64,000 bases of DNA from Gordonia pseudamarae (GTDB lineage Bacteria; Actinomycetota; Actinomycetes; Mycobacteriales; Mycobacteriaceae): NCBI RefSeq assembly GCF_025273675.1, contig NZ_CP045809.1, positions 186,001 to 250,000 on the forward strand, written 5' to 3'. The position numbers and the translations under genes were made by a program. Shown here piece after piece: positions 50,287-64,000 of this stretch; position 1 is the stretch's first letter, and each line of letters begins with the position of its first letter. The notes under the pieces are model-generated. The model searched no databases. It was not told the DNA's origin and worked only from the letters and a program-made list of their open reading frames with translations.

Positions 50287-50407
50287 GACGTAAGCATGTC
50301 TGTGAGGTACGATATCTGCTGGCCAGCCGGCATTCCGAAGCCACGTGCATTCGTTCGATCAGATGAATCTCAACCACCGTGCGCAATGTCAGATCAAAAT
50401 CCACGGT

Positions 50408-50423
50408 TCGAACGTATGATCGG
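50408..50423. promoter_or_regulatory. LexA/SOS-box-like site before the DUF222-HNH gene
   Basis: TCGAAC-GTAT-GATCGG matches 10 of 12 fixed positions of the mycobacterial-type SOS box TCGAAC-N4-GTTCGA. Some 13E12-family genes in Mycobacterium tuberculosis are LexA-controlled, so the position is meaningful, although the right half-site is weak. Confidence 0.5.
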
Positions 50424-50426
50424 TAT

Positions 50427-52028
50427 ATGGCTTGGGGAGAAGCACACCACGACGGCGAATCGTGTTCGACCGATTCGCCGGTGGCGACGATATCGGACCG
50501 CCGCTCACCCTTACGGATGGTGCGCGAGACCGCATCCGACAACGACCTGTCGGCACCTGAGCTGGTGGAGGTGCTCGCCCATTGCGCGTCGACGGTGGCC
50601 GCCGCCCAGTACCGAATGATCAGGACGGCCAGCCTGATTCACGACGAGCGCGCCGAAGAACACGCCTATGAGTGCAGTCTGGTCGACTCGGGTGAACGTA
50701 CTCCGGCCGAGTTGATGGATTCGGTTGCCGCAGGTAAAGATCCGCATAGAGATTTCGGCCCGGACGGTCTCGAACGCGCAATCGCGGAGGTGGGTGCGGT
50801 GTTGACGGTCACTCCGGCCCGCGCCAAGGCGTTGATCATCGCGGGCGACGCAGCCCGCTACCGTCTGGTGTTCACCTCGCACACGCTGGCCGAGGGACGT
50901 ATCGATCTTGACCGATTCCTGCGCGCTGTCACACGCACCGACCTGTGCTCCCCGGAGGCGATCGCCGATATCGACGCTCACCTGGCCGGGGCGATCCTGG
51001 ACAACCCGCCGATGTCCACGATCCGCTTCACCACCCTTGTCGACGCGTTGATTGCCCGCTGGGATCCCGAGTCTGTGCGTCGGCAGACCGAACGCAACAA
51101 ATCCGACCGCAAGGTCACCATCACCCCCGACCGTTTCGCCCGCGGCAACTCGCGTCTTGGAGCGTCGCTACCGGCAACGGACGGCGCAACGGTTGACGCC
51201 ACCCTGAACGCGATGGCGGGTTCGGTCCACTCAGCCGACCCACGCAACAAGCAACAACGCCGCGCCGACGCCCTGGTCGCGCTCGCCAAAGGCCGCACTG
51301 ATCTGCCGTGCCTGTGCCCAGCCTGCACCGCCTTCGCCGACATCGACGAGGTGCCAGAGCCCGCCGATCGCGACGAGGCATCGCAGACGAGCGCTGCCGA
51401 CGCCCGTATGGGTGCCCGTCCGGTGTTCCACATTGTGGTGAACCTGTCGACTCTCCTCGGCCTGGACAACGACCCCGGTTTCCTCGACGGGCACGGCATC
51501 GTCGACGCCACCACGTTGCGCTCCCTGCTGGCTGAGGCAGACCGCAGCTACATCAACCGCCACGCTGCGCAGCCAGACACTCAGCCAACCAAGTACACCC
51601 CGAGCCGAAAGCTGATCAACCTCGTCAAAGCGGGTGAGCTGTGCTGCACATTCCCCGGCTGCAACGCCCACGTCTGGACCGCCGACATAGACCACACCGT
51701 CCCGTTCGACCACCGCAATCCCACCTGCGGAGGACAAACCGTCCTCGGCAACCTCAAACCGCTATGCCGCTTTCACCACCGCGCAAAGACCTTCACCTCC
51801 TGGCAGGACTACCAGGACGACCTCGGCCGCGGCTGGTTCCAATCACCCACAGGCCACATGTTCTACGGCGCCTTCTTCACTGGCCGAACTCTGTTCCCAG
51901 GCCTCATCCCGCACCGAGACCCCGAACATCCTGGCCGCGCCACCCTCGATGCCGCCCGCCGCAAACGGATCGCCAAACAAGCCGATGACCAGCGGCGATG
52001 GGACGAAGCTAACCCACCTCCGTTCTAG
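50427..52028 (+). CDS. 13E12-type DUF222/HNH endonuclease protein
   Basis: A 533-residue protein of the 13E12 repeat family. The N-terminal DUF222 region is helical (LSAPELVEVLAHCASTVAAA onward). The C-terminal HNH nuclease has LCCTFPGCNAHVWTADIDHT, VPFDHRNPTCGGQTVLGNLK and PLCRFHHRAKT, with both Cys pairs of the zinc site and the catalytic His intact. ATG 50427 is chosen because it lies just after the SOS-like box; an ATG at 50379 is upstream of that box and one at 50517 is also possible. These genes are mobile-like and multi-copy in actinobacteria; their role is unclear but damage-inducible nuclease activity is likely. Confidence 0.82.
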   Translation: MAWGEAHHDGESCSTDSPVATISDRRSPLRMVRETASDNDLSAPELVEVLAHCASTVAAAQYRMIRTASLIHDERAEEHAYECSLVDSGERTPAELMDSVAAGKDPHRDFGPDGLERAIAEVGAVLTVTPARAKALIIAGDAARYRLVFTSHTLAEGRIDLDRFLRAVTRTDLCSPEAIADIDAHLAGAILDNPPMSTIRFTTLVDALIARWDPESVRRQTERNKSDRKVTITPDRFARGNSRLGASLPATDGATVDATLNAMAGSVHSADPRNKQQRRADALVALAKGRTDLPCLCPACTAFADIDEVPEPADRDEASQTSAADARMGARPVFHIVVNLSTLLGLDNDPGFLDGHGIVDATTLRSLLAEADRSYINRHAAQPDTQPTKYTPSRKLINLVKAGELCCTFPGCNAHVWTADIDHTVPFDHRNPTCGGQTVLGNLKPLCRFHHRAKTFTSWQDYQDDLGRGWFQSPTGHMFYGAFFTGRTLFPGLIPHRDPEHPGRATLDAARRKRIAKQADDQRRWDEANPPPF

Positions 52029-52505
52029 ACTAGTAGGGATGGGCGCCGACTGACGGTCTTGATGTTGTTTCCCGCTCAGGATCGTGCAACTCCGCTGCGG
52101 GAAGTCGTGGGGCGGGGCGGGGATACCCTACGGCTTCTGCTGATTCGCTCACTGTAAGATCGCCAGATTCAGTTCGGGCGAGTAGCTGACATCCGATGCG
52201 GCGCTGCTGAATGCCGATCTCGAAGCCCGTGCGCAAGCGCTCGGCATTCAGATCTCGGAGCGGATGGAGGACGCTGTCCCAATGTTGGCGATGCGGTCGT
52301 CGCGATCGGTGACCGGGAAACTGCTGCTGCGCGAAATGTGCGAGACGCGAGCGGTAGCGTTATCGACGTCGGGGACGTGGGCCTGAGCAAAGCGCGCAGG
52401 ACGGTCGGCTGCAGAAGGCGGCGCTGCACGTGAGACGTCAAGGCGAATGCGATCGGACGATGACGCGGTCCAGGTTGTCAGTTGTCGGCCGGTATTCTCA
52501 GACCT
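52029..52505. other. 477-bp gap with possible gene relic before vsr
   Basis: No complete gene is visible. From about 52192 to 52386 on the plus strand there is an open stretch (ADLEARAQALGIQISERMED, then SVTGKLLLREMCETRAVALS) without a start and closed upstream by TAG, so it may be the end of a deleted gene. A -10-like TATTCT at 52493-52498 lies at the right distance for a leaderless transcript of vsr. Confidence 0.45.
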
Positions 52506-52985
52506 GTGGCTGACACAGCACGTTCACGCAGCGCCGACGGAATGGCTAAGCCGGTGGCGTCGTCAGAACGTGTTCGCAGGCAGATGAGCCGCCAACGAAA
52601 CAAGGACACCGGTCCCGAAACGGCGGTTCGCAGGGAGCTTCACTCCAGAGGCCTCCGGTTCAGGACGGACGTCAAACTTGAAGACGATCTGCGGACCCGG
52701 GCCGATATCGCGTGGCGAGGCTTACATGTGGCGGTCTTCGTCGACGGCTGCTTCTGGCACGGCTGCCCCGACCACGCGACGCGGCCTGTCGCGAATGCCA
52801 AGTGGTGGGCAGCAAAGCTGGACAAGAACATCGAACGTGACCGCGCGACGACAACCTCTCTGGAGCGGCGAGGATGGACAGTTCTGCGCTTCTGGGAGCA
52901 TCAAGACGCGACAGAGATCGCGGCTGAGATCAGTCGGGTCGTGGCCTGCGCGCGCAGTGGTTCGGGAGTGCTGCATCCAAGGTGA
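52506..52985 (+). CDS. vsr: Very short patch repair-type endonuclease Vsr
   Basis: A 159-residue PD-(D/E)XK-type nicking nuclease. The hallmark block is SSERVRRQMSRQRNKDTGPE, then RADIAWRGLHVAVFVDGCFW, HGCPDH and a closing GWTVLRFWEHQ. The Asp of RADI and the Phe/His/Cys of CFWHGC are the catalytic and zinc-site residues. Vsr normally nicks next to T:G mismatches made by 5-methylcytosine deamination, beside a Dcm-type methyltransferase, but none is in this window. In many actinobacteria a Vsr gene instead heads DrmA/DrmB defence clusters, as here. GTG 52506 (leaderless) is preferred; TTG 52482 and ATG 52542 are in frame. Confidence 0.88.
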   Translation: MADTARSRSADGMAKPVASSERVRRQMSRQRNKDTGPETAVRRELHSRGLRFRTDVKLEDDLRTRADIAWRGLHVAVFVDGCFWHGCPDHATRPVANAKWWAAKLDKNIERDRATTTSLERRGWTVLRFWEHQDATEIAAEISRVVACARSGSGVLHPR

Positions 52986-53113
52986 GAGTTTGATGGCACG
53001 TATTCGTTTAGCAGACGCAAGGTTGTTCAGTCCCGTTCTTTGAGCGCTACCTGGGATGTTGTGGCGGAACTCGTTCGGGCCGAGTAGCCCGCCGCACAGA
53101 GAGGACACTCCCC

Positions 53114-53458
53114 TTGAGTTGCGAAGCGACCATGCCGAAGGGCTCGCGGTGGTTCTACGACGACGCGGTCGACAGTCAGTTAGATGCGGCATACTTCCTC
53201 GACTCGTTCCCTGAGTCTCCCCTGCAGGGCCTGACACGCCAGGCCCACCTGTTTGACGGTGACCGGATTGCCGGACGGGTGCTGAGCAACGACAAGGGCG
53301 GTTGTGATGTTGTGTACGACCCGGACGGACCTGCACTGGTGCCCACCAGGGCGATCTTGCGTCTGCGGCTGCTGCGTGCGCAGGTCAAGTCGGTCACCGA
53401 GGTATTCGACTTGTTGGTTGAAGAGTTCGGTCAGCGTGGTCGCAGGCCACCGCCCTGA
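53114..53458 (+). CDS. Unknown 114-residue protein in the defence cluster
   Basis: An open frame with good actinobacterial codon structure between vsr and the UvrD-type helicase. TTG 53114 has AGAGGA nine bases upstream; an ATG at 53132 gives MPKGSRWFYDDAVDSQLDAA. The product is mixed alpha/beta with acidic N-terminal half and a basic, helical C-terminal end (LRLRLLRAQVKSVTEVFDLL). I recognise no family. Its place inside the cluster and co-orientation suggest a role in it, for example an adaptor or a regulator, but this is context only. A 175-bp gap follows before the helicase. Confidence 0.55.
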   Translation: MSCEATMPKGSRWFYDDAVDSQLDAAYFLDSFPESPLQGLTRQAHLFDGDRIAGRVLSNDKGGCDVVYDPDGPALVPTRAILRLRLLRAQVKSVTEVFDLLVEEFGQRGRRPPP

Positions 53459-53632
53459 TGACCCGTCATCATCATGACCTTCCCCGCCAGCCTCACCGCC
53501 GTGCCGAGCCAGTTAGACCGTTGTCCGGACAGTCCCTACCGACACGCTCGAACATCTGGTGCATGTCATACCTATGCGGTACGACTAGTGAGACGTAACT
53601 GACGCGGCGGGCGCACTCGTGGTAGCTACCGC

Positions 53633-55486
53633 GTGAGTACTCGAACATGGTTGGCGGAACGTGGATGGGAAGGTTCGGTGCGGGCGCTGAACGACGGATC
53701 GACGCCGGATCTCGATGATTCGCAGAGACGAGTGGCCGAGGCGGACGCGGAGGCCCGCCTTGTGGTGATAGCGGGTGCCGGCCAGGGCAAGACCGAAGTG
53801 GTCGCGGCGAGATTGCAGCACCTTATGTCGGAGGAAGGCCTGTCTGGGTCGACCGCAATTCTGGTGCTCAGCTTTTCGCGGGCTGCTGTACATGCGATAC
53901 GGACACGGATGCTCGATCGGGATCTGGCCGAGGTCAACGTGCGGACGTTCGACTCCTTTGCCGCGGAGATCCTGCTCGAACTCTCGGACAACGAGCCCTC
54001 CGGGTCGTTCACCGAACGAATCAGGGAGGCCACTCGCCTCATTCACGAGGCCAAAGAGACCCCGGACGGGATCGTTGATCTTGAACACGTGATCATCGAC
54101 GAGGTTCAGGATCTGGTAGGCGATCGCGCAGAATTTGTCCTCGCGATTCTGGATCGTCTCGATGATGAGGCCGGACTGACGGTGTTGGGGGATCCACTGC
54201 AAGGTGTGTACGACTTCGTTCTCAAGGAGTCGACGAGCAAGCTGGCGTTCGACGATTTCTACTCACAGCTGAGTACCAAATATGGCACCGAGCGTGTCTC
54301 TCTCGACACGAATTACCGTGCGCAGGGGTACGACTGCAGACGGATTGTCGCGCTTGCCGACGATCTGCGCGCTCTCGATGCCGAGAGCGCGCTGGCGAAG
54401 CTCACCGAGTTCGAAAACTCGTTGGAGCACCTGGACAACATCCAGGAATGGGATTTCGTCGAGCTGTATTCGGGGCGGTCGGCTATCCTGTGCAGAAGCA
54501 ACGCCGAAGTCTTACGGGTCTCGCGGGCACTGATGGAACAGGGAATCGTGCATTCGGTTCGGTGCCAGGCCCAATCATTTGGAGCCGCGAGGTGGATCGC
54601 GTCTGCGCTGTCCGATACTCGGGGCCCCATTGTTCCGCAGACCTATATTGAAGCAGCAGTCGCGTCGATGGCCGGCGACATCGACGCGGTAGATGCGTGG
54701 AATCAGCTCAAAGTCGCCGAGGGACCGTCGCGAAATTCCGGTCAGATCAATCTGGATCGGATCCGCAAGAGGGTCCGATCGACTGCGGTTCCCTTACAGT
54801 TGACCCAGGTCGACGGCGCCGATCTGATCGTGTCTACGGTACATCGAGCCAAGGGGCTCGAGTTTGACAACGTGTTTATAGTCGACGGCGGTTATACGCC
54901 TGCGCATGAGGATAGTTTGGCAAAGCTTCGGCGAAAGTATGTGGCGCTCAGTCGCGCACGCGACAACATTGCGATTGTGAAACCAAAGTGGGGTGGGACG
55001 ACCATTGTCGACTACCGGTGGATGCCGGGGCGGTTGCAGGAACGTTGCGGACGTGCGGGTAGGTCCCGCGCCGTTGCTCTGGAGATCGACGGCGACGACG
55101 TATACACGTCGCGGCCCACATCCGCAGGGGGGTCCGATGCTACTGCGATACAAGATGCGCTCCGGCGAGCTTCATTGGGGACTCCCGTCGAAGCCGAACT
55201 CGACCGAAAGCGAGCAGAATTCGAGTCTCCGATCTACACCTTGACGTGTGACGACAAGCCGATCGGCCGCACGACAGAGGAATTCGGCAGGGACTTCGCG
55301 AAGACCTTCAACCTGAGGGACGGCAAGTGGCCTGTGGAGCTTGGTGGTGTACTGCTGGTGTCTGTTGAGACGACCGCGGGCGATCCGGCGTTCACAGAGC
55401 AGGAAGGAATCGGCGTAGGGGGGTTCTGGCTGGTGCCACGTGTGGCCGGCCTGGCCAAACCGTCGTGGGATGTGATGGAGAAGTGA
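53633..55486 (+). CDS. UvrD-family superfamily I helicase of the DISARM-like cluster
   Basis: A 617-residue helicase. Motif I is VIAGAGQGKTEVVAARL (about 45-61), motif II HVIIDEVQDLVGD (about 152-164), then VLGDPLQGVYDF, LDTNYRAQGYDC, STVHRAKGLEFDNVFIVDGG and YVALSRARDNIAIV. It is short, with small 1B/2B subdomains, and carries a beta-rich C-terminal extension of about 130 residues that I cannot name. The GTG at 53633 has no good ribosome site and may be leaderless. It ends one base before drmA, so the two are co-translated. Role: DNA unwinding or translocation alongside DrmA. Confidence 0.82.
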   Translation: MSTRTWLAERGWEGSVRALNDGSTPDLDDSQRRVAEADAEARLVVIAGAGQGKTEVVAARLQHLMSEEGLSGSTAILVLSFSRAAVHAIRTRMLDRDLAEVNVRTFDSFAAEILLELSDNEPSGSFTERIREATRLIHEAKETPDGIVDLEHVIIDEVQDLVGDRAEFVLAILDRLDDEAGLTVLGDPLQGVYDFVLKESTSKLAFDDFYSQLSTKYGTERVSLDTNYRAQGYDCRRIVALADDLRALDAESALAKLTEFENSLEHLDNIQEWDFVELYSGRSAILCRSNAEVLRVSRALMEQGIVHSVRCQAQSFGAARWIASALSDTRGPIVPQTYIEAAVASMAGDIDAVDAWNQLKVAEGPSRNSGQINLDRIRKRVRSTAVPLQLTQVDGADLIVSTVHRAKGLEFDNVFIVDGGYTPAHEDSLAKLRRKYVALSRARDNIAIVKPKWGGTTIVDYRWMPGRLQERCGRAGRSRAVALEIDGDDVYTSRPTSAGGSDATAIQDALRRASLGTPVEAELDRKRAEFESPIYTLTCDDKPIGRTTEEFGRDFAKTFNLRDGKWPVELGGVLLVSVETTAGDPAFTEQEGIGVGGFWLVPRVAGLAKPSWDVMEK

Positions 55487-55487
55487 T

Positions 55488-58400
55488 ATGAGCAAAGCGG
55501 CCCTGGAGGAGAAGTACCGGTTTCGGGAGCAACTGGTCGATGCGTTGGCCGCCGACCTCGTCGGTCCGGGAGGCGGTGTGGACGAGGTCATCTCAGAACC
55601 GCCGCTCAACCGCTACATTGTCGGTGCACTGTGGCCTAGGCCGGCGGACGTGAACATGGCGATATCGACTGCACAGCAAAGGGCGTCGGAACCGGAAGGG
55701 GCTGAGTCCGACACTGAATCCGACGAGGGCAGTCCGGTGGCCCAGGCGCGGATGCGGTTCCCGTCATCGATGGGTATGACATTCTCGGTCCGTGGCTCGG
55801 TGAGCGAGATCGTCATAACCCCAACCGCCGGCCGCTATGAGCAGCAAATGAACGGCGACAAGCCGGCCGATGAGTGGAAGAGGATCCCGCTCGAAGCAGA
55901 TCCGATTCACCAGAACATCGAGACCCCGGGAAAGTTCGAACACCAGCTCGGCAACGAACTGGAAGTCTACTGCCTTGTTCGACGTAAGCGCGAGGGCGCT
56001 GTTGCCGTGACGGTTGCTCTCAAGAACAGGGCGATCGCTGTGAAAGGGGAGCTCAGGGATTCAAAGGCCTGGTTTCAGGCTGGACTCGCGGTCACAACCG
56101 ACGGTCCGTGCATCGCGGACCGTACGGCACCTCGACGGGCCCTCTATGATCCCGACCTGGCGAGCGCGGCGCTGATGTATCGGAATGCACACACCTTTGC
56201 CATCGGCCATGGGTGCGCTGTGCAGTGGGACCTGAGCGCGGCTCAACATCGAGCCATCGACCGTGTGGAGACCACGTTCATTCCTTCGCATGAGGTGCAC
56301 CGTGCCAAGCCAGGAGAGCTCGATGATGTCGACCTTCGCATGGTCACACTAGCTGAAGCCGACAAAGCGACGGTTGTGGCCAACCTGCGAGACCTCACCT
56401 ACGGTTACCACGCGTGGATCCAGAAGGTCGAAGGTGACATCGAATCTGGGACAGCGGACGTAGTCACCGAGCTGCGGGCCGTTGCGCGACACCATATCGA
56501 GGAAATGGAGCAGGCAGCCAACCGGATCGATGCGGGAATCCAGCTGCTGGAGAACGATGACGATGCGTTCCGGGCATTCCAGCTCGCGAACCGGGCCATG
56601 CAAATGCAGCGTTCGAGGCAGGATTGGATCCGAGCCGGCCACAAGCCGGGAGAACTGTCCGATGGTTCGGAATCAAAGTGGCGCCCTTTCCAAATCGCCT
56701 ATTTACTGTTGAACCTCCCCGGCATCACCGATCCGGAGCATGAGGACCGCGATGTCGCGGATCTGCTCTGGTTCCCCACCGGTGGTGGCAAGACCGAGGC
56801 ATACCTCGGTCTGGTCGCCTACGTAATCCTACTGCGTCGGGTTCGTGACCGCGGTGCGTTCGGAGTGGCCGTGCTGATGCGGTACACATTGCGGCTGCTG
56901 ACAATTCAACAGTTCGAGCGCGCATCGATGTTGATGTGCGCGCTGGAGACCATCCGAAAAGAGAACCGTGACCTGGGGGAGCGGAAGTTCTCGATCGGGC
57001 TGTGGGTCGGTTCGGGCGCTACTCCGAACAGTCTCAAGGATGCCAAGACCGCACTCCGCAAGCTCGGGAACGGGGAGATACTGGAACAGAACAATCCGGT
57101 GCAGCTAAAGCAGTGTCCGTGGTGCGGTGCCCCGATGGATCACGAAAACTATCAGGTTGTGCAACGTCCCAAGCCTGGTCTCAAAATCGCCTGTGGAACT
57201 GATGGTTGCGACTTCGGTGACCGACTGCCGGTGCACGTCGTCGACGATGATGTCTATGCGGCACGGCCGGAACTGTTACTGGGAACGGTCGACAAGTTCG
57301 CCATGATGGCGTGGAACGAGAACGTGGGCAGTCTATTCGCACGCGACGAAGGGCTGCCGCCGGAACTGATCATCCAGGACGAGCTCCACCTTATCTCAGG
57401 ACCCTTGGGTTCGATCGTCGGCCTTTACGAGACCGCTGTCGACGCGGCCTGCACGGTGAGAGACCTCGGCGATGAGTCCGGTCGTTCACGCCCCAAGGTC
57501 ATCGCGTCCACCGCTACCATTCGTCGTGCTTCGGAACAGATCTCGGCGGTATTCGCGCGAGGCGCTGCACTGTTCCCGCCCCCTGGAATCGATCCGGACA
57601 CCTCGTTTTTCGCGGAGCCTTCTACGAGGGAGGAGTTCGGTACCAGGCGGTATGTCGGGGTAATGGCGTCCGGCACGTCCCATGCGACGCTGCTTATCAG
57701 GGTCTACAGCGCGTTGTTGCAGGCCGCCGCAGACATCGACGGCGATGATGTGACGCGCGATCCGTACTGGACGCTCTTGGGATACTTCAACAGCCTGCGG
57801 GTGCTGGGCAGCGCAAACCTACAGGTCGAAGGTGACGTGCGTGAGCAACTTGGAGTTGTTGCGGGCCGGTCCAAGACGACCACACGACCGGTGGAGCGGA
57901 TCAGTGAGCTGACGAGCCGGGTGCCTTCGTCGGAGATCCCGGGCAACCTCAAGCAGCTTGAGAACCAACTCGGCGGGTCGGAGAGCCCCATCGACGTGGT
58001 GCTGGCCACTAACATGATCTCGGTGGGTGTCGACATCGACCGTCTGGGATTGATGGCCGTGATGGGCCAGCCGCAGGCAAGTGCGGAGTACATCCAGGCC
58101 ACCAGCCGCGTGGGGCGTAAACACCCCGGGCTTGTGGTCACCATCTTCAACTCCGCACGTTCTCGGGACAGGTCGCACTACGAGAGCTTCCTACCGTTCC
58201 ATCAGGCAATGTACCGGGCCGTTGAGGCCACCAGTGCAACGCCCTTCGCCGCGCGAGCGCGTGACCGGGCACTGCATGGTGTGTTGATTTCGATGGTCAG
58301 GATGCTCGTTCCAGGGATGATGGACAACTCGTCTGCCCATCTTGCCGGCGAGTACTGCGACGACCTGACGAAGATCGGGAGGCTCATCGAACAGCGTGTC

Positions 58401-58670
58401 GCCGCAGTGGGAGACGATGAGATGGACGCGACCGCAATGGAACTCGGCAAACTTCTCGACGTCTGGTCAACAGCAGGCGATCAACGTCCGAACATGAAGT
58501 ACAGCAACACGAACATGGACTCATCCCTGATGGTGCGTCCCGCGGTCGCGCTGGTCAACGACGATATCGCCTACTCCCAGGATGATGTTCCTTGGCCGAC
58601 GTTGCAGAGCATGAGAGATGTTGACGCGGAAAGCAATCTGTACCAAGTCCCGGCTGGAGGGAAGAAGTGA
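55488..58670 (+). CDS. drmA: DrmA-like helicase
   Basis: A 1060-residue superfamily II helicase. The Walker A is LLWFPTGGGKTEAYLGLVAY (about 425-444), a four-Cys zinc knuckle is CPWCGAPM plus CGTDGCDFG (about 543-575), the motif II position reads IIQDELHLISGPLGSIVG (about 626-643), and the C-terminal RecA-like domain has LATNMISVGVDIDRLGLMAV and QATSRVGRKHPGLVV. This set is that of DrmA, the helicase of the DISARM anti-phage system, which with DrmB loads on foreign DNA ends. The gene lies one base after the UvrD-type gene and overlaps drmB by four bases (GTGA). Confidence 0.88.
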   Translation: MSKAALEEKYRFREQLVDALAADLVGPGGGVDEVISEPPLNRYIVGALWPRPADVNMAISTAQQRASEPEGAESDTESDEGSPVAQARMRFPSSMGMTFSVRGSVSEIVITPTAGRYEQQMNGDKPADEWKRIPLEADPIHQNIETPGKFEHQLGNELEVYCLVRRKREGAVAVTVALKNRAIAVKGELRDSKAWFQAGLAVTTDGPCIADRTAPRRALYDPDLASAALMYRNAHTFAIGHGCAVQWDLSAAQHRAIDRVETTFIPSHEVHRAKPGELDDVDLRMVTLAEADKATVVANLRDLTYGYHAWIQKVEGDIESGTADVVTELRAVARHHIEEMEQAANRIDAGIQLLENDDDAFRAFQLANRAMQMQRSRQDWIRAGHKPGELSDGSESKWRPFQIAYLLLNLPGITDPEHEDRDVADLLWFPTGGGKTEAYLGLVAYVILLRRVRDRGAFGVAVLMRYTLRLLTIQQFERASMLMCALETIRKENRDLGERKFSIGLWVGSGATPNSLKDAKTALRKLGNGEILEQNNPVQLKQCPWCGAPMDHENYQVVQRPKPGLKIACGTDGCDFGDRLPVHVVDDDVYAARPELLLGTVDKFAMMAWNENVGSLFARDEGLPPELIIQDELHLISGPLGSIVGLYETAVDAACTVRDLGDESGRSRPKVIASTATIRRASEQISAVFARGAALFPPPGIDPDTSFFAEPSTREEFGTRRYVGVMASGTSHATLLIRVYSALLQAAADIDGDDVTRDPYWTLLGYFNSLRVLGSANLQVEGDVREQLGVVAGRSKTTTRPVERISELTSRVPSSEIPGNLKQLENQLGGSESPIDVVLATNMISVGVDIDRLGLMAVMGQPQASAEYIQATSRVGRKHPGLVVTIFNSARSRDRSHYESFLPFHQAMYRAVEATSATPFAARARDRALHGVLISMVRMLVPGMMDNSSAHLAGEYCDDLTKIGRLIEQRVAAVGDDEMDATAMELGKLLDVWSTAGDQRPNMKYSNTNMDSSLMVRPAVALVNDDIAYSQDDVPWPTLQSMRDVDAESNLYQVPAGGKK

Positions 58671-60436
58671 GCGCGGTCGAGGCAACGGCACGTCGCAGCC
58701 AATTGGTGTCGACATACGGTGTAGGAGGACTTTTCCCGTCCGATTCATCGAGCTTCATGATCGTCGGGCTGGATGACTGGAACAAGGATCGCGCGCCGGT
58801 GGTCAGTGAACCTCGCCTGGCCAGGTCGCTCGGGGTGCTCGTGCTGAAATCGCCGCCGGCGAGTGAGGGCTCGTTCGTTCGGAGCAAGAAGTCCAAAGAT
58901 GTTCCGGTGATCCGGTTCCCGCGTCAACAGGTTTGTCCGGTCTGCCGTCGCATCGGCACCCACAGAGATCTGGGACTTGATTGGAATGCGGCGCAGTGTA
59001 AATGCCAGCAGAAGAAGGACGGCGCATCGCTGTCACCGTTCCGTCTGGTCGCGGTCTGTCCTCGGGGACATATTGATGACTTTCCGGTCTTCGGATGGCT
59101 TCACGCGGGCCAGGAATACGCCCGCGACAGCGAACACCGCATGACGATGAAGGCGTTGGGACGCACCTCCTCACTCGATGACCTGGAGCTGAACTGTTCG
59201 TGCGGAGTGCGGTCCAGGACCCTTGATAAGGCGACAGATGCGGCGTCGCTGAAGAACATCAAGTCGTGTTCGGGTCGGCGGCCCTGGTTGCGGGATGCCG
59301 AGCCAGAGGAGTGCCGTGAGGTACTCAGCGTGGTCCAGCGAGGTGCCTCGAACGTCTGGTTCCCGTCAGTGCGGTCGACGATCTCAATTCCCCCTTACTC
59401 GGAGAAGATCGCCAAATTGGTCGACAAGCATTGGGTGATTCTGTCGAGTCTTCCCAGTGACGCGTTGCGTGGGGCGGCAGAGAGAATTGCCAAAGCAGCG
59501 TCGAAAGTCACGACCGACGACATATTGTCCGAGGTAACACGTCGCCACGACGAAGAGAGCGGCGAATCGGTCAACGAAGAGGAGTTGCGGCGTCAGGAGT
59601 TCCGGGCGCTCATGGAGGGTCGCGACCCATCGCTGGGCGACGGGGACTTCGTGTGCGAAGTAACGGTGAGCGGGAGTGACTTCGACGTCGACGTACCTGA
59701 AATCTTCACTGACTTGCGCAAAGTGACACGACTTCGTGAGGTTCGGGCACTCCGTGGCTTCACGCGGCTGAAGGGTGACGAGGGTGCGGATGAGCTGTGC
59801 CAGCTGTCGATGTGTGTGACCGATTGGTTGCCTGCGATTGAGGTCATCGGCGAGGGCATCTTCCTGGGCATGGATCGGGGAGCACTCGATGATTGGGCTG
59901 CAGAGCCGTTTGCCCAGAAGCGCTTGGCGATGCTCCAGGCGTCGGCTGACTATCAGGCCGCCGAATTCGGCAGACCGGCCAAACCGGTCGACATCGTGAA
60001 GGTGGCTTTGCATACCTTCGCCCACGTCCTCATCGACCAGCTGTCGCTGGACGCCGGCTACCCGGCGTCGTCGCTGCGGGAACGGCTGTATGTGGACCCG
60101 GAAATGGCCGGGATCCTGATCTATACCGCGAGCAGTGATTCAGCGGGCAGCCTCGGCGGTGTCGCATCGCAGGCCGACCCGGATCGCTTTGCCGCCGCTG
60201 TCCGGGAGGGGCTCAAGCGACTCTCGTGGTGTTCGTCGGATCCGGTGTGCATCGAGACCGAGGCATCCGGCACCGACGCCATGAATCTGGCCGCCTGCCA
60301 CGCGTGCGTGCTGGCTCCGGAGACCTCGTGCGAACTGAACAACACGCTGCTGGACCGTGCGTTGCTGTTTGGAACCCACGATCCGGATGAGGAGGACGCC
60401 GGCATCTTCAGTACATTTGTACAAGACCTGGACTGA
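58667..60436 (+). CDS. drmB: DrmB-like DUF1998 protein
   Basis: A 589-residue DUF1998 protein. The N-terminus (SQLVSTYGVGGLFPSDSSSF) is typical of DrmB. Several Cys/His zinc motifs follow: CPVCRRIG (about 90), CKC, CPRGHIDDFP (about 131), CSCG, and the C-terminal DUF1998 block DIVKVALHTFAHVLIDQLSL followed by ACHACVLAPETSCELNN (about 544-560). DrmB pairs with DrmA in DISARM and binds DNA with it. It overlaps drmA by four bases. The next frame begins 35 bases later and is the broken helicase gene. Confidence 0.88.
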   Translation: MSAVEATARRSQLVSTYGVGGLFPSDSSSFMIVGLDDWNKDRAPVVSEPRLARSLGVLVLKSPPASEGSFVRSKKSKDVPVIRFPRQQVCPVCRRIGTHRDLGLDWNAAQCKCQQKKDGASLSPFRLVAVCPRGHIDDFPVFGWLHAGQEYARDSEHRMTMKALGRTSSLDDLELNCSCGVRSRTLDKATDAASLKNIKSCSGRRPWLRDAEPEECREVLSVVQRGASNVWFPSVRSTISIPPYSEKIAKLVDKHWVILSSLPSDALRGAAERIAKAASKVTTDDILSEVTRRHDEESGESVNEEELRRQEFRALMEGRDPSLGDGDFVCEVTVSGSDFDVDVPEIFTDLRKVTRLREVRALRGFTRLKGDEGADELCQLSMCVTDWLPAIEVIGEGIFLGMDRGALDDWAAEPFAQKRLAMLQASADYQAAEFGRPAKPVDIVKVALHTFAHVLIDQLSLDAGYPASSLRERLYVDPEMAGILIYTASSDSAGSLGGVASQADPDRFAAAVREGLKRLSWCSSDPVCIETEASGTDAMNLAACHACVLAPETSCELNNTLLDRALLFGTHDPDEEDAGIFSTFVQDLD

Positions 60437-60471
60437 CCGGGGGCTCCGGGCGGGCGGCCGATGAGGAGAGT

Positions 60472-60711
60472 GTGCGGGTCATCGTCCGTGACGAGGAGTG
60501 GATCGTTCGTTTGGTGAGGTCGGCGGGGTTCGACGGTACGCGGGTGGAGGTGGCCAGGGTCAGCGAACTGGTGCGTGACCAGGACTCGGCGTTCTTCGAT
60601 CATCCCGAACTCGACACCATCGAACGCCTCGACTCGCGGGACGAGCGGCTCGTCGCCGATGCCTCGACAGGCTCTGGTTGGAGTCGGTTCGGCGTGGCGG
60701 GTCCCCGATAG
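60472..60711 (+). pseudogene. 5' remnant of an SNF2-type helicase gene (drmD-like)
   Basis: GTG 60472, after GAGGAG, opens a frame reading MRVIVRDEEWIVRLVRSAGF and ELVRDQDSAFF, then ERLVADAS. As I recall them, these are the opening blocks of SNF2-like helicases encoded next to DUF1998 genes, which continue with a DDSP-YRRSRLWLE-type stretch. Here the frame shifts: the +1 frame directly after VADAS reads RLWLESVR, so a small deletion has removed about eight codons and shifted the frame. Everything after codon 80 is lost and replaced by IS sequence from about 60720. The system has lost its third helicase. Confidence 0.6.
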
Positions 60712-60721
60712 CCGGTCCAGG

Positions 60722-61190
60722 CAGTCCTAGAGCCAGTTCCTTGTTGTGATCGTCAGTCGATCTCGCAGCCCACGGGGTGATGCCGGTGGGCGCATCCGGC
60801 AGCGTACTCGGCCGGGGTCTGGTAGCCCAGCGCTGAGTGGCGATGGCGGTGGTTGTGGTCGTCTTTGAAGTCTTCGATGACTACACGGGCCTCGTGATTG
60901 CTGAACATCGTGGACCGCTCGATCACCTCCGAGTGCCTGATCGAGGAGTTGGAGAAAACATTCGCGATCTGGGGTGGCCACCGATGGTGCTGCGTATGGA
61001 TAACGGCCCTGAATTCATCTCAGAAGCCCTACAAGCGTTCTGCGCAGGGGCGGTGGGGATCTCCTACATCCCGCCCGGCACACCGTGGAACCGCCCGGCA
61101 CACCGTGGAACAACGGGTTCATCGAGTCGTTCAACAACCGCTTCGTGATGAGTGTTTGAACCGCAACTGCTGGCCCACACTGCTCGAGTG
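60722..61190. pseudogene. Fossil IS3-family transposase with internal inversion
   Basis: The C-terminal end of an IS3 OrfB lies on the minus strand (60753-60896: VVIEDFKDDHNHRHRHSALG to the TGA). The preceding part of the same protein lies on the plus strand (60901-61187): LNIVDRSITSECLIEELEK, then VLRMDNGPEFISEALQAF and SYIPPGTPWN, DECLNRNCWPTLLE. The two halves would join at LLE/ARVVIE, so a piece of about 290 bp is inverted. The plus part also has a one-base loss near 60975, a 20-bp tandem duplication at 61071-61110 and another one-base loss near 61134. It is dead. Confidence 0.75.
61071..61110 (+). repeat. Exact 20-bp tandem duplication
   Basis: CCGCCCGGCACACCGTGGAA occurs twice in a row inside the IS3 fossil. 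Because 20 is not a multiple of three it shifts the frame right after the PPGTPWN motif. Confidence 0.95.
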
Positions 61191-61202
61191 ACGAGGCTCA
61201 AG

Positions 61203-61278
61203 AAAGTTCCCCAGGTGTGCTCACTGAAATTCCCCACCTTGTGGGCGGCTCCTACTGTAGCGACCTTCGGGTGGGGGA
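61203..61278. mobile_element. Probable outer end of the IS21 element
   Basis: This 76-bp strip between the IS3 fossil and the younger IS3 carries two TTCCCCA words (61208-61214 and 61231-61237) around GTGTGCTCACTGAAA. That spacing of short repeats resembles the multiple terminal repeats of IS21 elements. If so, it was once joined to the end of istB and the younger IS3 element split the two. Confidence 0.5.
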
Positions 61279-61305
61279 TGATCCATCCCGGTGTTTCTGG
61301 AGAGC

Positions 61306-62259
61306 TCAGATCGTGAGTGCCTCCTCCGGATTGAGGGTGGCGATCCGATCGTAGTGGAGTCGCTCGGCGTGGTCGGGGGTGAGGTCGTGGCAGTAGCTGT
61401 GCGGCCGTTGCCGGTTGTAGAACGCAACCCATTCGGCGGTGGCCAACGATAGTTCGGCGACGCCGTGGAAGCGGGGCTGGTTGTCGACGAGTTCGTTCTT
61501 GTAGTCGGCGTTGACCGATTCGGCCAACGCGTTGTCGTAGCTGTCCCCGATGCTGCCGATCGATGCGGCGATCCCCGCTGCAGCCAGCCTCTGCCCGAAT
61601 GCCAGAGCGGTGTACTGCGACCCCGCATCGCTGTGATGGATCAAATTATCGAATATCGTTGTTCCACAACGCCATCAATTGTCGATCGCGTTGTTAATAG
61701 CGGTAGTGACCAACTCGGAAGTCATCTCCGAGGCAACTTTCCAGCCGACGATCTTGCGGGCGAATACGTCGGTGACGAACGCGGTGTACGCCCAGCCGCC
61801 GACGGTGCGGCAGTAGGTGAAGTCGGCTACCCACAGCCGGTTGGGCGCGGCCGCGTAGAAGTGGCGGTCGACCAGGTCGGCCGGCCGGTGATGGTCGGGG
61901 TTGGAGACCGTGGTGCGCGGAGACTTCTTCTTCGACGCCCCCCGCCACCCCATCTCACCCATGACACGCTCGACGGTGCAGCGCGCCACATCAATTCCGT
62001 TGCTTCGCAACATAATCCGTGTCTTCCGCGATCCCAGGACGCTCGTCAACGGGTGCTGCTGGCGCATGGTGTAGATCGCGTCAATGACGCGGGCATCAGC
62101 ACGCATGCGCGCCGATGCGACGCGGCCCCGATGTTCGTAGTAGGTGGATGGGGCGATGGCCATACCGTGCTCGGTGAGCACCCGACACATCGAATCGACT
62201 CCCCAGATAAGACCATCGGCGCCCACCCGGTTTCCCTGATGAGCGCCGATGAACTCCAC
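61306..62259 (-). pseudogene. IS3-family transposase OrfB with in-frame stop
   Basis: From 62259 the frame holds CRVLTEHGMAIAPSTYYEHR, RTTVSNPDHHRPADLVDRHF and LWVADFTYCRTVGGWAYTAF (first catalytic Asp) up to INNAIDN, then a TGA at 61675-61677. The same frame continues with IFDNLIHHSDAGSQYTALAF (second Asp), ALAESVNADYKNELVDNQ (Glu) and ends at 61306. The bases around the stop (ATGGCGTTGTGG out of frame) suggest an insertion and a compensating loss near 61650-61680 rather than a single point change. The transposase is therefore split before its second catalytic Asp and should be inactive. Confidence 0.82.
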
Positions 62260-62261
62260 AA

Positions 62262-62588
62262 TCAGCGATGTGCCCGGTCGATCTCGGCCGCGAAGAAAGC
62301 CGATGCCGCCTTCAAAATGCCGTTGGCTCGCTTGAGTTCGGCGACCTCCTTCCGGAGCCGACGAACCTCCTCCGCCGTTTCGACTGAGGCGTCGCCCGAG
62401 GACGCCGAGGCGGCGCCGGGGGCCTTACGCACCCACTGACGCACCGTTTCGGCCGCGCCCACACCAAGCAGGTCCGCGGTCTTCTTCATCGCCGCCCACT
62501 CCGTCGAACCCTGACCCACCAACTCCGCCACCATCGACACCGCGTCGCGCTTCAACTCCGCCGAGTAATGCTTCGTACCTGCTGCCAT
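62262..62588 (-). CDS. IS3-family transposase OrfA
   Basis: A 108-residue DNA-binding subunit: KHYSAELKRDAVSMVAEL, TADLLGVGAAETVRQWVRKA and a C-terminal coiled coil (EEVRRLRKEVAELKRANGIL) ending in FFAAEIDRAHR. I use ATG 62588 (MAAGTKHYS); an ATG at 62597 is in frame. OrfB starts in another frame just after its stop, so the fusion transposase would need ribosomal frameshifting, as usual in IS3. Confidence 0.87.
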   Translation of the reverse strand: MAAGTKHYSAELKRDAVSMVAELVGQGSTEWAAMKKTADLLGVGAAETVRQWVRKAPGAASASSGDASVETAEEVRRLRKEVAELKRANGILKAASAFFAAEIDRAHR

Positions 62589-62636
62589 GAGATCCATCTT
62601 CCCTTGAGACGAACCCTCCGGAAATCCCGGGACGGA

Positions 62637-63473
62637 TCAGGCGGTGGCGGTGCGCTGGTTTTGGGTGCGGGCGTGGTGGTCGCGTAGCCGGTAGGAGTCG
62701 CCGTCGAGTTTGAGCACGACTGAGCGGTGCAGCAGGCGGTCGAGCATGGCTGCGGCGACGGTGGTGTCGCCGAGTACCTCGCCCCATTCGGCGACGGACC
62801 GGTTGGTGGTGATCACGACCGATGTTTTCAGATAGCGTTGTGCCACAACCTGAAACGGTGCTGATGCGGCTTCGGCCGGCAGCGGCAGGTAGCCGAGCTC
62901 GTCAATCACCAGAAGAGTGGGTCCAGCGAAGAATCGCATGCAGGTGGACCAGCGGCCCTCGATGGCCGCTTTGTGACACCGTGCGGCCAGATCGGCCGCG
63001 GTGGTGACGTAGGTGCGATACCCGGCGTGTACCGCGGCATGCGCGAGCCCGACCGCGAGGTGGGTCTTGCCAGTGCCGGGCGGGCCGATGAGCAGCACAT
63101 TCGTGGCCGACTCGAGGTAGGCGCAGGTCCCGAGTTCCCGGATCAGTGCCCGATCGACTCCGGGTGCGGCGTCGTAGTCGAAGCCGTCCAGGGTGGCCGG
63201 GGTGGGTAGGCAGGCAAATCGCAGCCGCCCGGCCAGTCGGCGGGCTTCTGTAGCGTCGACCTCGATCGAGAGGAGATGTTCGAGTGTGTGGGCCATCGAC
63301 CACTCCTGTTCGCCGGCGGTTGCCAAGACCTGCGGCAGGGCTTCGGCCGCGGCGTCGAGTTTGAGGACGGCGAGATGTCCGCGTAGTTGCTGATAGACCG
63401 AGATCGCTGATTGTGACTGTGGCTGAACACTATTCGAAGAGTCCGGTCCGGTCTTGTTGGTGTGGGTGGTCAT
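62637..63473 (-). CDS. istB: IS21-family IstB-like ATPase
   Basis: A 278-residue AAA+ helper of IS21 transposition. Walker A is LLIGPPGTGKTHLAVGLA (about 127-144), Walker B TLLVIDELGYLPL, and the sensor region VVITTNRSVAEWGEVLGD. An N-terminal helical domain (VYQQLRGHLAVLKLDAAAEA) precedes it. Its TGA (62637-62639) is formed by the last three bases of the IS3 element, so the natural C-terminus may have been a little different. The start overlaps the istA stop by four bases (ATGA). Confidence 0.92.
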   Translation of the reverse strand: MTTHTNKTGPDSSNSVQPQSQSAISVYQQLRGHLAVLKLDAAAEALPQVLATAGEQEWSMAHTLEHLLSIEVDATEARRLAGRLRFACLPTPATLDGFDYDAAPGVDRALIRELGTCAYLESATNVLLIGPPGTGKTHLAVGLAHAAVHAGYRTYVTTAADLAARCHKAAIEGRWSTCMRFFAGPTLLVIDELGYLPLPAEAASAPFQVVAQRYLKTSVVITTNRSVAEWGEVLGDTTVAAAMLDRLLHRSVVLKLDGDSYRLRDHHARTQNQRTATA

Positions 63474-64000
63474 GGGAGGTGGGTCCTGTTCTGTGCGGCG
63501 CGTTCGTAGACGCTCATGTCGATCACCGACGCCTGCGTGGCAACATCAACGTTGGTGGTGGATGTGTTGCGGCGCAGCGCGTCTGCTGCGTCACGGGCGG
63601 CCTGACCGGGTGGGATGCGTTCTTTGCGGCGATGTGGCCGCCGGCTGCTGGAGGCGCCGGCCTTGGCCAGGGTGTCGAGTGCGACGAGGTGCCCGTGATC
63701 ACGCACCTGTGCTCCCGACCCCGCAGCAGCCAGTCGGTGACGGGCGATCACGATGCCCGAAACGGTGGCGATATCGATGTGCCCGTCGCCGAGGCGCTCA
63801 CTCACACTGACCTCACTCATCGCCACCTCCGGCGGCACCGAGTACTGGTTGCCTCGCCACGCCACCAGCGCCTGACCAGACACCGTGCGCACTTCGGTGA
63901 CCGTAGCCGGATACGGCGCAGCTGGCGGGGCGCTCGGCGGTTCGCGTTTGGCCACGGTGATCACACTCACCCGACCGTCAGAGGTGGGGCGCATCCGCAC
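63470..64000 (-). CDS. istA: IS21-family IstA transposase, C-terminal part
   Basis: The frame enters from the right edge and ends at 63470; 176 codons are visible. It contains the C-terminal Mu-type beta domain (TVSGQALVAWRGNQYSVPPE, GDGHIDIATVSGIVIARHRL) and a basic tail. The catalytic D, D, E residues are outside the window. It is coupled to istB, giving the normal istAB order on the minus strand. Confidence 0.85.
   Translation of the reverse strand: MRMRPTSDGRVSVITVAKREPPSAPPAAPYPATVTEVRTVSGQALVAWRGNQYSVPPEVAMSEVSVSERLGDGHIDIATVSGIVIARHRLAAAGSGAQVRDHGHLVALDTLAKAGASSSRRPHRRKERIPPGQAARDAADALRRNTSTTNVDVATQASVIDMSVYERAAQNRTHLP

Follow-up and report, generated by a model that had tools for sequence, protein, structure and literature searches.

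The window analysed here is a stretch of 64,000 nucleotides from Gordonia pseudamarae (C1:186001-250000 of a 5.15 Mb genome in one contig), which carries a DISARM-like defence locus with genes for a Vsr-type endonuclease, a UvrD-type helicase, DrmA and DrmB. All four genes, proposed earlier in a preliminary description made from the sequence alone, are real and lie on the plus strand. The Vsr gene spans 52542..52985; its open reading frame (ORF) runs from a TTG codon at 52482, the ATG at 52542 being the likely start. It scored 114 bits with the TIGR00632 model (cut-off 97.85), matched three solved Vsr endonucleases (PDB 1cw0, E = 9.5e-12) and was 65-69% identical to the Vsr proteins preceding UvrD in the related genomes G784, G777 and G923. 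The second gene (53633..55486) encodes a 617-residue superfamily 1 (SF1) helicase of the UvrD type (PF00580, E = 5.9e-19, and UvrD_C), whose top PADLOC models were those of GajB. It is followed by the gene for DrmA, a YprA-family superfamily 2 (SF2) helicase (55488..58670; NF038325, 1040.9 bits, cut-off 950), and by the gene for DrmB, a DUF1998/MZB protein with an open frame (58667..60436; NF038324, 457 bits, cut-off 240). The last two proteins matched the solved structure of DrmAB from Serratia, DrmA with chain 7s9v_A (E = 6.7e-173) and DrmB with chain 7s9v_B (E = 3e-70). The near-zero spacing noted earlier was also measured, with +1 bp between UvrD and DrmA and a 4-bp overlap (-4 bp) between DrmA and DrmB, the Vsr-UvrD gap being 647 bp.

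Behind DrmB the array ends in a gene fragment of about 80 codons (~60472..60716, plus strand), found by tblastn with the ArmA proteins of G262, G875 and G923. ArmA is a BrxHII/DrmD-like SNF2 helicase, and only its N-terminal part is left, with 55-59% identity over 72-96 amino acids to the SNF2 helicases of these three genomes and 41-46% identity to more distant ones; longer alignments to G784 and G777, which begin within DrmB, were excluded. The frame is broken near the end of the fragment and clear homology stops at ~60716, where remnants of transposase genes on the opposite strand adjoin the truncation point. According to the ORFs and frames read there, insertion-sequence remnants occupy 60717..64000 and comprise, on the minus strand, what we take to be fragments of the IS3 type and a pair of the IS21 type. 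The broken SNF2-type helicase described earlier is thus a real, frame-broken and truncated remnant; its SNF2 homology stood, and its identity was revised, as by tblastn similarity it is the start of the ArmA gene of an ARMADA type II module. An assignment of the fragment to the DrmD of class 1 DISARM was rejected, as it matches the ArmA genes of the array instead. With these ~80 codons as its only part of the ArmA-ArmB-ArmC-ArmD set, the window fails as an ARMADA type II locus. No array-type ArmC was detected elsewhere in the genome at 1e-100, the best match being a partial one, 43% identical, to another YprA-type protein. The space separating DrmB from the remnant of ArmA is too small for an ORF of DrmC, a PLD nuclease, and PLD domains were not sought further out.

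The conservation of the gene order was surveyed from both helicases. The window UvrD was sought in 401 genomes of the same family, with 18 matches at E ≤ 1e-90 (its own included), and in GTDB genome contigs, with at least 78 loci, of which 37 were full-length and all from Actinomycetota by their titles. Another 41 of these loci (L120-L160), with a weak or partial UvrD, were not annotated, and 5 of the 37 repeated genomes counted elsewhere, leaving 32. The DrmA search covered 397 genomes of the order, with matches in 75, and 59 genomes of the genus, with 7 matches; the 75 genomes yielded 40 long stretches from 38 genomes, and those without a window-type UvrD stayed outside the final set. In total, 54 non-window loci were tabulated by tblastn, 17 from the same-family UvrD search, 32 from the GTDB contigs and 5 from the order-wide DrmA search. 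In 54 of 54 loci UvrD lay directly 5' of DrmA, followed by DrmB; because 49 of them had been found through UvrD, the count is conditional on UvrD and states that a window-type UvrD goes with DrmA, not which share of DrmAs has a UvrD.

Of 63 DrmA rows in a quick maximum-likelihood tree, 39 formed one clade (SH-aLRT, a Shimodaira-Hasegawa-like approximate likelihood ratio test, 100), comprising the window and the UvrD-partnered DrmAs, that of L163 included. Class 1 DrmAs, also that of G. pseudamarae itself, and DrmAs partnered by a NERD-SF1 helicase lay outside it; the tool warned that class 1 and three outlying rows have long branches that may attract. UvrD is the partner of the window-type DrmA clade. 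Within it, the window grouped with G923, G784, G777 and G942 (support 100) on a terminal branch of 0.30, compared with 0.09-0.24 in these four sisters. L163 and L164, with a UvrD (35% and 42%) between a sacsin-type gene and DrmA, were kept outside the 54. A parallel DISARM-like variant, in which the NERD-SF1 helicase replaces UvrD before DrmA, was also seen (among L045-L069; L170, L171) and is in part headed by a sacsin-type ATPase as well.

A fusion of a sacsin-type ATPase and an SF2 helicase of ~1570 amino acids lay directly 5' of UvrD in 44 of the 54 loci; in the one or two proteins scanned, the P_loop_sacsin model NF047352 was over its cut-off, with PADLOC TmtA at 4e-49 and Pfam ResIII at 2e-18. 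The ten loci without it are those of G784, G777, G923, G907, G942, G1031, G921, G913, G989 and G067. In the close relatives G784, G777, G923 and G907 a Vsr gene stands in its place, as in the window, with a 340-amino-acid ORF between Vsr and UvrD in G923. A gene for a cytosine methyltransferase (Dcm) and a 470-amino-acid ORF precede UvrD in G942, and in the other five genomes UvrD lies within an ORF of ~1050 amino acids. This long ORF (L191, L193, L195, L197, L040) is extended at its N-terminus by over 400 residues. Counted in the main stretch of each locus, 33 of the 54 had Dcm on either strand and 18 had Vsr, which adjoined Dcm in 11 cases; the four loci with the window's arrangement had no Dcm beside vsr.

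The 3' side of DrmB was examined in the same relatives. Each of the 17 same-family genomes with a window-type UvrD had ARMADA type II genes behind DrmB and on its strand, with ArmA to ArmD all present in 12 and ArmD alone in 5. Their order was ArmA, the SNF2 helicase; ArmB, an Eco57I-type methyltransferase; ArmC, a YprA helicase; and ArmD, in which an N-terminal RelE fold is joined to a UvrD-type helicase (Pfam gave a weak or no result for the ArmD N-terminus). Of the Vsr-led relatives, G784, G777 and G923 carry ArmA to ArmD and G907 carries ArmD. The large ArmB gene is found two genes after DrmB in G784, G777, G923 (where it is split over two ORFs) and G942. The G784 array, spaced at -4 to 35 bp, was scanned protein by protein: the SNF2 helicase had BrxHII and DrmD matches, the best NCBIfam model being DrmD at 312 bits against a cut-off of 610; the methyltransferase was of the Eco57I type with DrmMI matches and weak PglX matches; ArmC was a DruE-like YprA protein (top PADLOC match Druantia DruE, 1.5e-87) and ArmD was GajB-like. 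The relatives thus show the ARMADA type II order of SNF2 helicase, methyltransferase, YprA and GajB-like protein, by protein identity in G784 and by order in 12 of 17 genomes. In four genomes a second, related UvrD gene was observed directly 3' of ArmD (L173:535-2346, L172:4552-6360, L179/L180 and L182:17796-19589), so that the array there is flanked by two related helicases.

Taken together, the window probably holds the surviving Vsr-UvrD-DrmA-DrmB front of a composite antiphage array, which continues into ARMADA type II in its relatives. Several observations, besides the conditional nature of the 54/54 count, weigh against this interpretation. A Vsr-type nuclease at the C-terminus of ArmC is weakly indicated, with Pfam MTES_1575 at E = 0.015, below the cut-off, in one of two rows, and with a probability of 2.8% in a profile comparison with Vsr. 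Moreover, nothing was recognised after DrmB in 19 of the 54 loci (~5 kb seen) and in others Vsr or Dcm comes next; the front module therefore occurs without ARMADA type II as well. Finally, the window DrmB departs at 8 of 199 invariant columns; the remaining full rows have 0-5 departures, and a row that lacks its beginning has 32.

Whether the two modules act together is a separate question. They may form one integrated, two-engine actinobacterial defence machine, encoded by one operon that would supply a pair of YprA-family helicases (ArmC besides DrmA), two to three helicases of the UvrD type, one methyltransferase and, as an interchangeable front sensor or trigger, either a GHKL sacsin-type ATPase or Vsr; we put this forward tentatively. 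It is also possible, with the balance of evidence leaving it short of likely, that they are independent systems lying side by side in a defence island. Independence is favoured by the 19 loci with nothing recognised after DrmB and by G285 and G210, where the ARMADA type II string has no DrmB in the 2 kb upstream. It is opposed by the common strand and order in 12 of the 17 same-family genomes, by ArmD after DrmB in all 17 and by the tight spacing in G784, where it was measured.

The front genes of the window look intact by their conserved positions. DrmA kept 206 of 206 columns scored as invariant in 37 relatives, as did 22 of these 37; UvrD departed at 4 of 115 invariant columns (other rows 0-10) and Vsr at 1 of 37 (others 0-6). 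In a second set, DrmB kept 14 of 14 invariant cysteines and showed 9 departures. Its departures may hint at relaxed constraint on this protein, so that "intact" holds by sequence only, and the window appears to be a decayed copy of the composite array with a front module that still looks intact. The same conservation of DrmA, of the DrmB cysteines and of 36 of 37 Vsr columns could be read in favour of a methylation-independent DISARM subtype that is minimal yet functional, its Vsr nicking the target for removal by UvrD and DrmAB, the more so as four relatives are likewise led by Vsr with no Dcm beside it. However, none of these four ends at DrmB (three have ArmA to ArmD with the ArmB methyltransferase, one has ArmD), and the window array terminates in a truncated gene beside insertion-sequence remnants, which makes such a subtype improbable.

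The methylation independence suggested in the preliminary description is accordingly unsupported, because the nearest relatives G784, G777, G923 and G942 carry the ArmB methyltransferase, which the window lost with the rest of the ARMADA type II module. The position of a Vsr gene before UvrD is no evidence for it. That no methyltransferase is in view was correct inside the window and did not hold beyond it, as an open Dcm gene lies 14 kb past DrmB on the other strand of the same contig. It had also been considered that the locus would be just a degraded classic DISARM if Dcm always stood next to vsr and UvrD were not conserved. UvrD was conserved in all the tabulated loci and Dcm, although common, was not beside vsr in the four window-like ones, which argues against that simple view.

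A protein of 114 residues encoded in the Vsr-UvrD gap (53114..53458, plus strand) had been counted as a member of the cluster, and this was not borne out. Its sole match among ~5.8 billion proteins was itself, it had no Pfam, PADLOC or NCBIfam match, and nothing significant was found for it across 75 loci (best E = 1.3). The gap is only ~155 bp in two close relatives, where the ORF is missing. It is probably not a gene of the system, judging from these comparisons. Remnants of other genes were also considered for this gap and rejected. With sacsin, tblastn over the window gave no match in the cluster other than one of E = 0.8 within DrmB, the best (E = 0.03) lying at 51 kb, and the best matches of Dcm (E = 4e-4 to 0.02) lay at 14-32 kb. 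Directly upstream of Vsr (50379-52028) lies a gene that, from its sequence, we take to be DUF222/HNH-like.

Three open genes were identified on the minus strand beyond the window end, numbered here in window coordinates: that of a 785-amino-acid protein read as DUF262 from its sequence (67389-69746), that of a 1608-amino-acid sacsin-type ATPase/SF2 helicase (69795-74621) and the Dcm gene mentioned above (74715-75830). They may be a defence unit of their own (67389-75830). Alternatively, UvrD-DrmA-DrmB could belong with these opposite-strand genes, which lie 7-15 kb downstream, and have been split from them by a rearrangement. Since sacsin stands directly 5' of UvrD in most loci and both such a gene and Dcm occur at 69795-75830, this was considered, and G067 and G989 have, after ArmD, a sacsin gene 55% identical to the downstream one. 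The downstream sacsin, however, falls in a different subgroup: it is 54% identical to that of L037 and 31-35% identical to those of L039, L041, L042 and L043, whereas the DrmAs of the latter four are nearer to the window's (56-60%) than that of L037 (43%). As the closest relatives of the window also have no sacsin before UvrD, we regard the split as rather unlikely.

A separate class 1 DISARM with DrmD, DrmMI, DrmA and DrmB is present in the same contig (G000:C1:3641692-3661570, L004:1693 to L005:2171) and has mobile-element insertions of its own. A transposase, presumably of the IS256 type, a resolvase and an opposite-strand second copy of the DrmMI C-terminus lie between DrmMI and DrmA. The presence of this system, the DISARM models passed by the window DrmA and DrmB, and DrmD as the best NCBIfam match of the intact SNF2 counterpart would fit the window locus being a degraded class 1 or class 2 DISARM. 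This seems very improbable, given that its DrmA belongs to the UvrD-partnered clade, apart from class 1 including that of its own genome, that UvrD is present in every tabulated relative and that the SNF2 gene is part of an ARMADA type II string also found in G285 and G210 with no DrmB just upstream. A third locus of the YprA family (L212:10958-18944, C1:4772957-4780943), with a YprA-like helicase in a 1733-amino-acid frame followed by an SNF2 helicase, is possibly an ARMADA type I.

From the observed gene content, order, clade, open front genes and truncation of the composite array, we infer a possible mode of action. In the Serratia DrmAB complex a loop in DrmA holds the complex off and 5'-overhang DNA switches it on, according to the sections consulted (PMC9142583). 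By analogy, DrmA-DrmB would load where phage DNA, on entry or during replication, exposes free single-stranded 5' ends, UvrD would extend the unwinding, Vsr or the ArmC C-terminus would cut the opened DNA, and methylation by ArmB would protect the DNA of the host. A Vsr before UvrD with no adjacent Dcm, as in the four relatives, fits such an effector role. ARMADA type II is described, in the part of the preprint consulted, as giving direct, non-abortive protection, which a mutation in any of the four genes abolishes or lowers (PMC12458937). With the marking (ArmB) and ArmC parts lost, full function of the window copy is unlikely; judged by what is left, it most likely has no activity as a complete system, or is at most a helicase block that receives help in trans, from either the nearby cytosine methyltransferase or the genome's own class 1 DISARM.

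The main interest thus lies outside the window, in the recurrent DISARM-like and ARMADA type II array, DISARM and ARMADA type II each being known already. According to Bell et al. 2025 (Figure 1 legend, PMC12458937), many classes within the DISARM-like clade of YprA helicases are uncharacterised. One of them now gets a defined anatomy, UvrD-DrmA-DrmB with, in most cases, a sacsin-type fusion of ATPase and helicase at its head, and within one bacterial family ARMADA type II is physically attached to it. This raises the testable question whether one self-marking methyltransferase serves two helicase-based systems built from different components. Such a joint array was not found in the open-access literature searched, as far as its text was covered.

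Compared with known systems, the locus is DISARM-like, as described earlier, and stands outside classes 1 and 2, with Vsr and UvrD leading and a separate DrmA clade. Class 1 consists of DrmD, DrmMI, DrmA, DrmB and DrmC, and class 2 of DrmE, DrmMII, DrmA, DrmB and DrmC. The window DrmA and the adjoining DrmB exceed the NCBIfam cut-offs as in any DISARM, but the methyltransferase is missing from the window cluster, whereas a DISARM operon typically has one, DrmMI and/or DrmMII, with DrmC often missing, according to the text consulted (PMC9142583). What the relatives share with class 1 is a nearby SNF2 helicase and a methyltransferase of the Eco57I type; the clade of the window DrmA, the leading UvrD and the gene order differ, and there is no DrmD, the window SNF2 being truncated and its G784 counterpart well below the DrmD cut-off. 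With class 2 the locus shares DrmA, DrmB and a cytosine methyltransferase near many relatives, but the one Dcm scanned best fits other type II models, not DrmMII. No DrmE was among the listed PADLOC and NCBIfam matches of the window genes (for UvrD, 25 of 43 PADLOC matches) or of the sacsin protein, the presence of DrmE models in these libraries being unchecked.

The ATPase before UvrD in most relatives resembles TmtA, which we take to be a component of Tiamat, in its model matches; it differs in its C-terminal SF2 helicase and its position before UvrD-DrmA, and is not there in the window. Vsr is known for very-short-patch repair beside Dcm. The window Vsr is over its family cut-off and Vsr adjoins Dcm in most Vsr loci, but in the window and its four analogues it precedes UvrD with no adjacent Dcm. 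As for ARMADA type II, the window retains the ArmA remnant only, and the consulted part of the preprint does not place a UvrD-DrmA-DrmB module ahead of that system (Bell et al. 2025, PMC12458937); behind DrmB, however, the relatives carry the four ARMADA type II genes in unchanged order, ArmD having a RelE-fold N-terminus.

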